DNA of 36,702 nt from an uncultured Clostridia bacterium (GTDB lineage Bacteria; Bacillota; Clostridia; Oscillospirales; Ruminococcaceae), in the NCBI GenBank assembly GCA_947627905.1, contig CANQXX010000020.1, forward strand, positions 1 to 36,702, given 5' to 3'. Position numbers and translations under genes: made by a program. The first letter of the stretch is position 1. The number at the start of each line of letters is the position of its first letter. Positions 7,807 through 36,645 of this stretch are shown one piece after another. Below the pieces are notes generated by a model. It did not search any database. It saw nothing but the letters and a program-made list of their open reading frames with translations, and was not told the origin of the DNA.

Positions 7807-8247
7807 ATGGATACTTCGTCTTTTGTCGTTGTGAGTACCGATGTTCTGCCGGATATTTTTCCGAAAGTCCTTGAAGTGAAGCGTATGCTTGCCTGCGGTG
7901 AAGAGAAAAGTTCAGCTTCTGCCTGCAAAAAAGCAGGTATTTCCAGAAGCGCATTTTACAAATATCGGGAATGTGTATTTGCCTATGAAGAAAAACTGAC
8001 GCAGAAACTTGTGTCGTATTATGCTCTGCTGAAAGACGAGCCGGGCGTGCTTTCTTCGATATTAAGCGAATTTCACAAACAGGGTGCCAACATTATCACC
8101 GTAAATCAGAATATGCCTATTGACGGTGCAGCGGCGGTGAATATAACCGTCCGGCTTTTCGGTGACGCTTCGGGCGCATATGAACTTAAAAATATCCTTT
8201 CGTCTATGGACGGCGTCGTGGACGTAAAGTTTATTTCCGGGGAATAA
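7807..8247 (+). CDS. ACT-domain protein (PheB/UPF0735-like)
   Basis: Small 146-residue protein with an N-terminal putative helix-turn-helix-like part (KKAGISRSAFYKYRE, about residues 40-55) and a C-terminal ACT domain (about 70-145, including LSSILSEFHKQGANIITVNQ and AAVNITVRL). ACT domains bind amino acids and usually act as allosteric or regulatory sensors. ATG 7807 is chosen because GGAGG (7797-7801) stands 5 bases before it and overlaps the alternative GTG 7795. It sits 36 bases ahead of hom, an arrangement common in Clostridia and Bacilli, so sensing threonine-pathway amino acids is a fair guess, not shown. Confidence 0.85.
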   Translation: MDTSSFVVVSTDVLPDIFPKVLEVKRMLACGEEKSSASACKKAGISRSAFYKYRECVFAYEEKLTQKLVSYYALLKDEPGVLSSILSEFHKQGANIITVNQNMPIDGAAAVNITVRLFGDASGAYELKNILSSMDGVVDVKFISGE

Positions 8248-23623: not shown

Positions 23624-24580
23624 TCATATCCTCGGAGCAGGTGTGCGCGCGCTTATGTCGTGAAGAACGTCCCTTGCCGTTGCGCCCGCGGCTTTTGCCT
23701 TAGGCGTGAGAAGTATCCTGTGTTCAGCTACATCATTAAGAATAAATTTAACGTCCTCCGGGATAACATAGTTTCTTCCGCGCATAAGTGCGGCTGCTTT
23801 TGCCATTGAAGAAAGCGCAACGCTTCCCCGCGGGCTCAGTCCGAGCTTTATCTGCGGGTGAGAACGCGTAGCGGCGGCTATTGAAGCTATATAACGGTAT
23901 ATTTTATCATCGGCAAAAACTTCTTCGGCGGCTTTTTGCATGGTGATTATATTTTCTGCTTTTGCCACAGGACGGATATCTTCTGCTCTGCCGGAGCTTT
24001 CCTTTGACCTGAGTATAGAAACTTCGCTCTCTATGTCCGGATAACCCATTGAAAGACGGACTATGAAACGGTCAAGCTGGGATTCAGGCAGCATTTGTGT
24101 ACCTACGGAGCCGATAGGATTTTGTGTGGCGATAACTATAAAAGGACTTGGCAGCTTGTGAGTAACGCCGTCAACGGTCACCGAGCCTTCCTCCATTGCT
24201 TCGAGAAGCGCGCTCTGGGTCTTGCTGGACGTGCGGTTTATCTCGTCTGCAAGAAAAAGACTGCAAAGCGCCGCACCGGGTTTATATTCAAAGCAGCCGG
24301 TCTGTCTGTTGTATACGGTAAAACCGGTAACGTCCGCCGGAAGAACATCCGGCGTGAACTGCATACGCTTGTAATTAAGTGACATTGCCTTTGAAAAAGC
24401 CACTGCAAGGGTAGTTTTTCCCACTCCGGGTATGTCGTCGAGAAGGATATGTCCGCCTGCTATTATTGCGAGCAGTGTTTTGATTATGATATCATTCTTG
24501 CCTATAACTGCTTTCTGGACTTCGTCGGCAATGCTTTTTGCCAGAGGCATTATCTGTGTTTTTATTGTCTGATCGGTCAT
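23624..24580 (-). CDS. MoxR-family AAA ATPase
   Basis: Chaperone-like AAA+ ATPase of 318 residues, thought to remodel or activate partner proteins such as DUF58/von Willebrand A proteins. Walker A is PGVGKTTLAV (GVGKTT at 52-57), Walker B is LFLADEINR (Asp112-Glu113), and IATQNPIGSVGTQMLPESQLDRF is the MoxR sensor region. The lid domain has SPRGSVALSSMAKAAALMRGR. ATG 24580 has AAAGGAG about 14 bases upstream, a long spacing, but a stop codon prevents an earlier start. It is the first gene of the leftward operon, preceded by a promoter and a perfect palindrome. Confidence 0.93.
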   Translation of the reverse strand: MTDQTIKTQIMPLAKSIADEVQKAVIGKNDIIIKTLLAIIAGGHILLDDIPGVGKTTLAVAFSKAMSLNYKRMQFTPDVLPADVTGFTVYNRQTGCFEYKPGAALCSLFLADEINRTSSKTQSALLEAMEEGSVTVDGVTHKLPSPFIVIATQNPIGSVGTQMLPESQLDRFIVRLSMGYPDIESEVSILRSKESSGRAEDIRPVAKAENIITMQKAAEEVFADDKIYRYIASIAAATRSHPQIKLGLSPRGSVALSSMAKAAALMRGRNYVIPEDVKFILNDVAEHRILLTPKAKAAGATARDVLHDISARTPAPRI

Positions 24581-35621: not shown

Positions 35622-35658
35622 AAAAAAGCTGTACGGAAATTTTCCGCACAGCTTTTTA
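35622..35658 (+). terminator. Terminator of the pyrimidine operon
   Basis: AAAAAGCTGT and ACAGCTTTTT pair, with CGGAAA/TTTCCG continuing the stem past one mismatch; the T-run is part of the second arm. It lies 16 bases after pyrD. The second arm also contains the in-frame stop of the minus-strand RHS fragment. Confidence 0.85.
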
Positions 35659-35773
35659 AATGCATAGGTTATTCGGCTTTTTCCATGCATAGGTATACTC
35701 AACAGTCCGATCAAGTTCAGCAACGGAAAGCCTTTCACCAGCCGAACCGAGAGTATAGATATATTGTACCACA
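35656..35773 (-). pseudogene. RHS-repeat core fragment, inner copy
   Basis: The minus strand reads VVQYIYTLGSAGERLSVAEL then DRTVEYTYAWKKPNNLCI and stop. GERLxxAELDRTVEYTY is the kind of YD/RHS repeat sequence found near the end of the RHS core before the toxin tip. There is no start codon with a ribosome site, and the repeat stops short, so it is a remnant. It shares a 28-base identical run (35696-35723) with the outer copy at 36568-36595. Together the two copies bracket the A+T-rich gene, which suggests a duplicated core segment left by tip exchange. Confidence 0.7.
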
Positions 35774-35821
35774 ACTTTGCTATAAATATCAACAAACTTG
35801 TGAAAAATATTAATTAAAAAT

Positions 35822-36364
35822 TTAAATATCTAAATTATATCTTTTTAAATAGGTAGGAGTATCTGTTTTAAATGCCCAATGTTCCAAAAGATTTTGATTG
35901 AAGTTTATTTTATCTCCTATTAAATAATTATTATTTTTTTTAAAATATAATTCCACTCTTGTTGACATATCATCAATTGTTAAAATCACTAATTCAAAGG
36001 ACTTTGTATATATTTTAACTCCAATATCACTTACAACAATCCACTTATCATTATTAAAGTTCCAAGAAATTTTATCTCTAATCAAAAAAACTTTAAGGAT
36101 CTTTTCATCTAAAAAATATTTTGTTTTATTATCACAATGAAACATATTAATTTTTTCTATACATATGCGTGAATAATCATCTTTATCTTTATTATATTCA
36201 ACTTTATTAAATATACTGTAAATCCCATTATCAGTAAGAAAAATGATTTTTAACATAATGTTATTTTCAAAACAAACATTTATTATTGTACTGCTTTTAA
36301 ATTCCTTCCATATTAAGTTTTCACCGTTGAATTTAGATACAATATTTGATAAGTTAAATACCAT
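35822..36364 (-). CDS. A+T-rich orphan protein, possible immunity protein
   Basis: I cannot assign this 180-residue protein to a family. It is Asn/Ile/Lys/Phe-rich, has no signal peptide or membrane helix, and ends LLEHWAFKTDTPTYLKRYNL. Its base composition is far more A+T-rich than any other gene here, a sign of transfer. I choose ATG 36364 (MVFNLSNIV) because AAGAG lies about 9 bases upstream; ATG 36373 is almost on top of that site. It lies between two RHS core fragments on the same strand, directly after a fragment that ends like a toxin tail. That is the usual position of an immunity gene in polymorphic-toxin loci, so an immunity role is inferred from place alone. Confidence 0.6.
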   Translation of the reverse strand: MVFNLSNIVSKFNGENLIWKEFKSSTIINVCFENNIMLKIIFLTDNGIYSIFNKVEYNKDKDDYSRICIEKINMFHCDNKTKYFLDEKILKVFLIRDKISWNFNNDKWIVVSDIGVKIYTKSFELVILTIDDMSTRVELYFKKNNNYLIGDKINFNQNLLEHWAFKTDTPTYLKRYNLDI

Positions 36365-36390
36365 AGTAAACATCTCTTTTCATAGATTTA

Positions 36391-36427
36391 ATGCTTATTA
36401 CTAAATTTGATATTTAGTAATAAGCAT
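36391..36427. terminator. 16-bp perfect hairpin between RHS fragment and orphan gene
   Basis: ATGCTTATTACTAAAT (36391-36406) and its exact reverse complement (36412-36427) surround a 5-base loop. A T-run follows on the plus strand (36429-36434), so it would stop plus-strand transcription best. On the minus strand the following sequence TTAAATC is weaker. It sits just upstream of the orphan gene's ribosome site. Confidence 0.6.
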
Positions 36428-36432
36428 ATTTT

Positions 36433-36645
36433 TTAATCAATAAAGTGAATTTTTTGAGGTTTTGTTGTTTCACCACCACTAAATGATACAGCAGGAGTAC
36501 CATCTGAATTGGAAATTGATCTATAAGTAATGTATGTTCCGTCAGTCGGTAAAGATCATCATAGGTGTACTCAACAGTCCGATCAAGTTCAGCAATATAA
36601 AGCCGCTCGCCAGCCGCACCAAAGGTAATACATATTGTAACATAA
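36433..36645 (-). pseudogene. RHS core fragment joined to a toxin-tail-like segment, frameshifted
   Basis: Minus-strand reading from right to left gives FGAAGERLYIAELDRTVEY then TYDDLYRLT, a clear RHS/YD repeat, preceded by a stretch that matches VQYVYT only if one missing base is restored. After YRLT the frame changes by one base. In the new frame [19 protein letters not shown] and [17 protein letters not shown] run to a stop at 36433. This last segment looks like the end of a toxin domain, whose body is missing. The locus therefore carries two frame breaks and an internal deletion. No functional toxin can be made. Confidence 0.65.

Follow-up and report, generated by a model that had tools for sequence, protein, structure and literature searches.

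Promoters internal to rhs core DNA are known from Salmonella, in which P2A and P2B drive the main and the orphan tip together with immunity, as evidenced by a start site mapped by 5'RACE and by reporter activity (PMC7043789). Displacement of Rhs C-terminal tips leaves core fragments of variable length on the displaced tips, and their exchange by homologous recombination was proposed (PMC2935791); the word "promoter" is absent from the main text of that article. The orphan immunity arrays of Vibrio T6SS clusters comprise immunity genes kept after effector loss and are driven by recombination (PMC5361080). Orphan immunity is also known in Serratia (PMC10539506), recombination of immunity genes has been reported for T7SS (PMC9484751), and polyimmunity loci are collections of toxin-less SUKH and Imm genes, arranged in tandem and made together (PMC3482391). 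Orphan immunity genes are common, and little attention has been paid to the means by which such a gene continues to be expressed after separation from its toxin operon. No description of solitary immunity genes with promoters supplied by RHS-core scraps was found among the titles and abstract openings searched, in which subscription literature is thinly covered.

The locus described here resembles these systems in part. As with Salmonella P2 (PMC7043789), promoter hexamers, here predicted from the sequence, lie within core DNA upstream of a tip or immunity gene. Unlike P2, which is located just before PxxxxDPxGL, the Clostridia site occupies a different position of the core (about codon 2737 in the RHS gene of genome G321) and persists on scraps of roughly 80-170 bp before solitary genes. 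Unlike the displaced tips reported for Rhs (PMC2935791), several of these fragments are toxin-less and stand away from any RHS gene in the flanks examined. The Vibrio arrays occupy the 3' region of T6SS clusters (PMC5361080), whereas here the genes stand behind RHS scraps at scattered loci, mostly with one gene per promoter scrap, unlike in the polyimmunity loci (PMC3482391). With the acquired interbacterial defence arrays (rAID) of Bacteroidales, the present genes share mobility, orphan status and a gut host; rAID systems are recognised by their tyrosine recombinase (PMC12247911). The reading that we favour, and consider reasonably probable, is that of a decayed, mobile RHS cassette reduced to its immunity gene, with scraps of core kept as promoters and perhaps as recombination anchors.

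The window, i.e., the whole stretch of DNA analysed (36,702 b), is the entire contig C20. Its right-hand end, where the locus lies, carries the following features:

35623..35657, no strand: hairpin on the pyrD side with 17-nt arms (inverted repeat), present also in the nearest relative G018; border of the insert.
35669..35686, minus strand: last codons MEKAE-stop of the gene that follows pyrD in G018 (..IMEKTE-stop there), joined directly to fragment A.
35688..35792, minus strand: RHS-core fragment A, with a promoter-like TTGATA, an 18-nt spacer and TACAAT, then the core remnant GSAGERLSVAELDRTVEYTY (from the repeat, homology and the promoter scan).
35792-35787 and 35768-35763, minus strand: promoter-like TTGATA and TACAAT of fragment A, respectively, the spacer between them ending in TGTGG.
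35822..36373, minus strand: intact 183-aa ORF, putative orphan immunity gene (from the ORF list and relatives).
36391..36427, no strand: palindrome with perfect 16-bp arms (inverted repeat), inside which the 659-bp block shared with G016 starts.
36436..36543, minus strand: 36-aa end of a toxin-like C-terminal domain, in a frame different from that of fragment B (from similarity search).
36544..36639, minus strand: RHS-core fragment B, with an extended -10-like TGT-TACAAT (TACAAT at 36639-36634) and no recognisable -35, then a core remnant.

The two fragments share a 68-nt direct repeat (D1, 35688-35755 and 36560-36627, 84% identical, spacing 872). The original prediction of two near-identical minus-strand RHS-core peptides agrees with this repeat and with its minus-strand translations, the peptide of fragment A reading ...GSAGERLSVAELDRTVEYTYA. 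The 28-base run predicted to be identical was recovered on the printed copies (35696-35723 and 36568-36595), and the single A+T-rich gene placed between the fragments is indeed an intact minus-strand ORF (36373-35822, 183 aa).

By homology to longer in-frame cores, fragments A and B are RHS core. Pfam alone is a weak guide: fragment B reaches 17.5 bits (E 0.0055) against RHS_repeat, for which the cut-off is 22 bits, and fragment A has no Pfam match. Thus, the profile search originally named as the test of the RHS assignment gave a match below the cut-off for B and none for A, and the assignment is upheld through cores that do match RHS_repeat. The core peptide is matched in 4 of 21 genus genomes, the own genome included (E <= 0.001), and the peptide of fragment B is 74% identical to in-frame cores in G015:C18 and G019:C11, both of which are tandem arrays of RHS core, tip and small gene. 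The first ORF of the G019 array matches RHS_repeat in 10 stretches (E 2e-61) and carries a DNA/RNA nuclease domain at its end, and the second carries a HINT domain (Pfam). The repeat is not a product of chance, because fragment A matches loci L019, L020, L023, and L024 with best E-values of 3e-18 to 6e-78. No relative of the core was found among viral contigs or, with a 39-aa query, among plasmids; a 60-aa query retrieved 10 cyanobacterial plasmid records, all under 60% identity.

The own genome (74 contigs, 96% complete) yielded no full-length RHS gene, an absence that is not final since the contig ends at fragment B. Core searches of this genome returned the two fragments and one weak match on C15 (E 0.57), and in a second search only fragment B, under the cut-off. 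The orphan tip that was expected to exchange with a main RHS gene therefore has no visible partner in these 74 contigs.

Insertion beside the pyr operon, next to the terminator of pyrD, had been proposed and is borne out by the hairpin common to the window and G018, the relative with the closest pyrD (91.6% DNA identity). In G018 this hairpin is followed by a 372-aa minus-strand gene ending in IMEKTE-stop and lacking a Pfam match. The window retains just the MEKAE-stop of such a gene, fused to fragment A. Alignment of relatives had been expected to reveal an empty site after pyrD; G018 lacks the cassette there, but the site is occupied by the different, 372-aa gene. A search of the own genome, run without a positive control, did not recover the remainder of the G018-type gene, and on this ground a clean insertion of the array into a neighbouring gene that survives elsewhere was rejected.

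The gene occurs at different sites in two other species. G016 shares a 659-bp block (98.8% identity) that includes the complete 183-aa gene, whose protein is 99% identical; the block is flanked there by an array containing a different small gene and by an aldo/keto reductase gene, and its borders lie inside the palindrome at 36391-36427 and at the -10 of fragment A. The third site is in G019 (C120), where the 3' end of the gene together with fragment A matches at 97.6% identity over 167 bp. The pyrD genes of G016 and G019 are 87.3% and 87.2% identical to that of the window at the DNA level, and divergence of the cassette at the pyrD rate has binomial P values of 2e-28 and 2e-6, respectively. 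The far greater closeness of the cassette than of pyrD in both genomes indicates that the cassette is mobile and was transferred between species. This recurrence between species and the promoters in the fragments are additions to the original prediction, which was right on what the locus is; what is added to it is the probable role of the fragments.

The palindrome lies just before the 183-aa gene, with one arm altered in G016, and could be a terminator-like hairpin or a border of the cassette. The neighbour at the third site, in G019, reads by eye like a nucleotidyltransferase.

Short core fragments are also present in G009 (C44, C207, C22, C16, and C202), in G255, which belongs to another genus, in G019:C120 and in G016. 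The family searches covered 297 or 396 genomes drawn from a larger group, and the survey counts are lower bounds, as evidenced by the G016 fragment, which was missed by the genus search (E 0.001) and found only via its gene. A gene was scored behind a fragment when it starts at most 350 b from the -10, has a Shine-Dalgarno match of at least 5/7 and encodes at least 80 aa. Such genes stand behind 9 of the 15 fragments examined, 80-272 b after the -10: solitary small genes behind fragment B and the C44, C207, C22, C202, G255, and G016 fragments, and ordinary-looking genes behind G019:C120 and a second G016 scrap. Fragment A and scrap C16b have no gene behind them within these limits, and the gene behind C16a has a weaker Shine-Dalgarno site (by eye). 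Orphan tips follow the fragments of G317, G019b, and G217, the out-of-frame hits of G317 and G019b being left uncounted.

In Pfam searches, the solitary gene at G009:C207 was assigned to SUKH-3 (E 7e-8). That at G255:C6 is SUKH-1-like (E 3e-4, below the cut-off), that in G016 matches DUF4259 (E 0.0025, also below the cut-off), and those at C22, C16, and C202 have no credible family match. The RHS arrays of the sister species G019 and G015 contain Imm42 (E 5e-13). Overall, the curated cut-off was passed by two of the ten small proteins from arrays and fragment loci, namely SUKH-3 of G009:C207 and Imm42, with two further proteins giving SUKH matches below it.

The 5' edge of the fragments carries TTGACA-N18-TACAAT, with TGTGG before the -10. 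This promoter type (TTGACA-N18-TGTGGTACAAT) is conserved while the remaining core decays; in intact frames the promoter-like stretch encodes LD[IN]DG..VVQY. Across the family, TTGACA-N13-TGTGGTANAATA occurs in 67 of 396 genomes, and its reversed control in none of the genomes listed. The listing comprises 102 sites, 11 of which are RHS-core sites known from the present analysis. Such an excess over the reversed control is as expected for a real promoter type with an extended -10 and an 18-nt spacer.

The association with RHS core was also assessed with a profile (A2) that starts after the -10 and was thus not chosen by the promoter. Applied to 396 genomes, it returned 22 places with E <= 0.05, from which 15 with E <= 6e-13 were counted and seven weak ones (E 0.001-0.05) dropped. 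Both hexamers, with at most one mismatch and a spacing of 18, are present in 11 of these 15, the exceptions being fragment B, G019c, G321 (CACAAT), and G115. In the G321 gene (9765 b), the site is at nt 8210, about 517 codons from the protein end, with the Rhs_assc_core domain downstream of it (residues 2960-3039); six further listings in the sense direction, spread over five places of this gene, are obtained when at most two mismatches in total and spacings of 16-19 are allowed.

In the window itself, fragment A contains TTGATA-N18-TACAAT with TG, the best minus-strand match of a promoter scan that gave 8 sites in the whole window vs. 10.1 in shuffles, i.e., no excess. The site points at the pyrD hairpin/terminator, with no gene behind it. 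Fragment B, the one expected to serve the 183-aa gene, has kept TGT-TACAAT, lacks a -35 and lies shortly before the contig end. The 183-aa gene of the window may therefore be weakly expressed or use another start, and expression of this copy is uncertain.

Under the favoured reading, a displaced RHS tip consisting of a piece of core, a toxin and an immunity gene would have undergone a deletion that removed almost the entire toxin, while the immunity gene and short edge pieces of core DNA stayed intact. The edge pieces would be preserved because the core DNA of this RHS clade would hold within them a strong vegetative promoter (TTGACA-N18 ending in TGTGG-TACAAT), from which the orphan gene would be expressed. 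Transcription from the scraps is predicted from sequence. What the sequences show directly are the homologies, the toxin remnant, the transfer between species, the promoter consensus with its selective conservation, and one gene replacement behind a shared scrap.

The alternative of plain decay, in which the fragments are passive scars, the promoter-like bases inherited codons and the 183-aa gene a survivor by chance or recency, appears rather unlikely. Displacement of C-terminal tips is reported to leave core fragments of variable length (PMC2935791), the change of frame at fragment B shows deletion or decay, and passive scars would readily explain fragment B without a -35, fragment A without a gene behind it and the array copy G019c without a promoter. 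Such scars are, however, difficult to reconcile with the pattern of conservation. This was tested on seven untranslated fragments (fragment A, C44, C207, C22, C16a, C202, and G255), five of them from G009; C16b, found via the promoter pattern, fragment B, lacking a -35, and G019:C120, nearly the same as fragment A, were left out of the main test. In this small set of related sequences, analysed without tree correction, mean pairwise identity within the 98-b region is 0.959 for the 14 promoter columns vs. 0.704 for the rest, and only 3 of 20,000 random column sets (1-14 of 20,000 upon leaving one out) were as good. The same holds for third codon positions, with 0.929 in the promoter and 0.642 elsewhere.

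Addition of C16b changes these values to 0.964 vs. 0.648 (0 of 100,000 random sets and 0 of 87 slides), and of C16b together with fragment B to 0.891 vs. 0.638 (0 of 100,000 random sets), while a set of five fragments gives 0.943 vs. 0.696 (76 of 100,000 random sets). The constrained stretch is not sharply resolved, because the promoter mask slid by one base in the set with C16b still gives 0.946 vs. 0.964. Also against plain decay, the decayed scrap C16b retains both hexamers and the TG with its core destroyed, a case biased by its discovery through the promoter pattern; and the long in-frame RHS of G115 has no such site, that of G321 a weakened one.

The borders of the fragments point in the same direction. 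In 7 of the 12 groups of fragments, ungapped extension places the end of core homology 0-13 b before the -35 (fragment A/G019:C120, C207, C22, C16a/C202, C16b, G217/G317, and G019b), which likewise speaks against passive scars; fragment A/G019:C120, C16a/C202, G217/G317, and G019c/G015c were each taken as one event, and fragment B was included without a border. Homology extends well upstream of the -35 in C44, G255, and G016, and in G019c/G015c it starts internally. The right borders vary (YTY, RLTGE, KVTAY, and TIEF), which argues against one integron-like (attC-type) site, and the G016 copy meets its flank exactly at the -10. A single fixed recombination site ending the fragments was rejected on account of these varying right borders, and trimming down to the promoter suits the observed borders better.

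The order of core, toxin end and ORF in the window is that of core, toxin and immunity gene. The toxin-like C-terminus (36543-36436, 36 aa) was absent from the original prediction, whose orphan-tip layout, with core followed by a gene in the immunity position, otherwise holds, this remnant sitting between the two. The partial decay that it proposed is evident in the core B and toxin pieces, which are mutually out of frame, and in the loss of most of the toxin domain. Its description as a silent orphan tip misses what survives: the toxin is lost, the gene is intact and mobile, and fragment A retains a promoter-like site with bases that are conserved among similar fragments elsewhere. Besides the own genome, one of 297 family genomes contains a relative of the toxin tail (G026:C36, 62% identical, E 2e-7), and no match was found in plasmids or phages. 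This relative is a 300-aa ORF (L028:4659-5561) without a Pfam match at E 0.01, located among genes that look, by eye, phage-structural; its first part is like the toxin tail of the window, and its second half has the look of a distinct protein joined to it by fusion.

The 183-aa protein (180 aa from an alternative start) is probably an orphan immunity protein, a putative assignment made from its position. That the ORF is instead unrelated A+T-rich cargo trapped between two core fragments seems improbable. It would agree with the lack of a significant match of the protein in Pfam, NCBIfam, and PHROGs, and with the restriction of close relatives to G016 and, in part, G019. However, the ORF stands directly behind a toxin-like C-terminus, in the standard toxin-immunity order, and comparable slots elsewhere are occupied by SUKH-3 and Imm42 genes. 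A search of 297 family genomes recovered the gene only in its own genome; one of 246 relatives added G016 and, with an internal stop, a weak match in G048 (E 0.0025), which was disregarded; no relative was found in viral contigs or plasmids. AlphaFold, run without homologues, gave no usable fold model (pLDDT 32). On balance, the locus is probably a decayed RHS tip with a probable immunity gene, as judged from its sequence.

Exchange of the gene behind a scrap is exemplified in G009, in which contigs C16 and C202 appear to carry duplicates of a single locus with different genes behind the same scrap. Identity is 86.5% over 698 b for the upstream flank, scrap included, and 89.8% over 668 b for the downstream flank, whereas the DNA between them does not align and contains a gene of 123 aa in one copy and of 168 aa in the other. 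In C16 the non-aligning part ends with another scrap in a more advanced state of decay, where C202 has just TTGACA (by eye), and the resulting layout of scrap, gene and scrap mirrors that of the window. Because the right-hand scrap of C16 does not align, replacement is demonstrated behind the left-hand scrap only. In the favoured cassette reading, the same scraps may offer homology for swapping the gene behind them, the route by homologous recombination being inferred. That the scraps are mainly recombination sites, with core repeats as exchange anchors and an incidental promoter, is very improbable: the C16/C202 difference, the two 84% repeats flanking the window gene and the exchange of T7SS immunity genes through blocks of about 55-100 nt (PMC9484751) would suit it, but the constraint sits on promoter bases, the differing right borders and the G016 junction at the -10 mean that no single site is used, and no breakpoint could be placed inside two matching scraps.

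A broader proposal, to which we give somewhat less than even credence, is that in this lineage of gut Clostridia non-coding RHS-core scraps act as selected, portable units of promoter and homology before single orphan immunity genes, spreading between species and loci, so that genes could be swapped and expressed at once. If true, these scraps would constitute a recombinase-free system resembling gene cassettes, assembled out of the remains of a weapon gene. Provision of a promoter by the scrap, perhaps along with homology, would explain the persistence of short RHS fragments beside solitary genes, and the combination would provide a simple signature by which immunity genes so far unrecognised could be found in gut Firmicutes. 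The idea of internal rhs promoters, known from Salmonella, would thereby extend to Clostridia, at a different core position.

Several genomic neighbourhoods deserve mention. The RHS arrays at L020:10461-14000 (G019:C11) and L019:1-504 adjoin genes that by eye are relaxase-, MobC-type- and zinc-finger-primase-like, which suggests that the arrays are carried on a mobilisable element. The variable locus of C16/C202 is flanked by a VirD4/TraG-like fragment (L117, L118) and, in C16, is near a phosphate-transport operon (both by eye). In G317:C24 (L119), near 24017, a core fragment is in frame with an apparent end of a HINT region and a further domain (by eye); this fusion looks like another internal deletion starting at the promoter-bearing edge. 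The RHS protein of G321:C2 (L122:1500-11261) comprises 3254 aa with C-type lectin, VWA, Ig-like, and PKD matches, and two ORFs located 3' of it resemble orphan tips (by eye).
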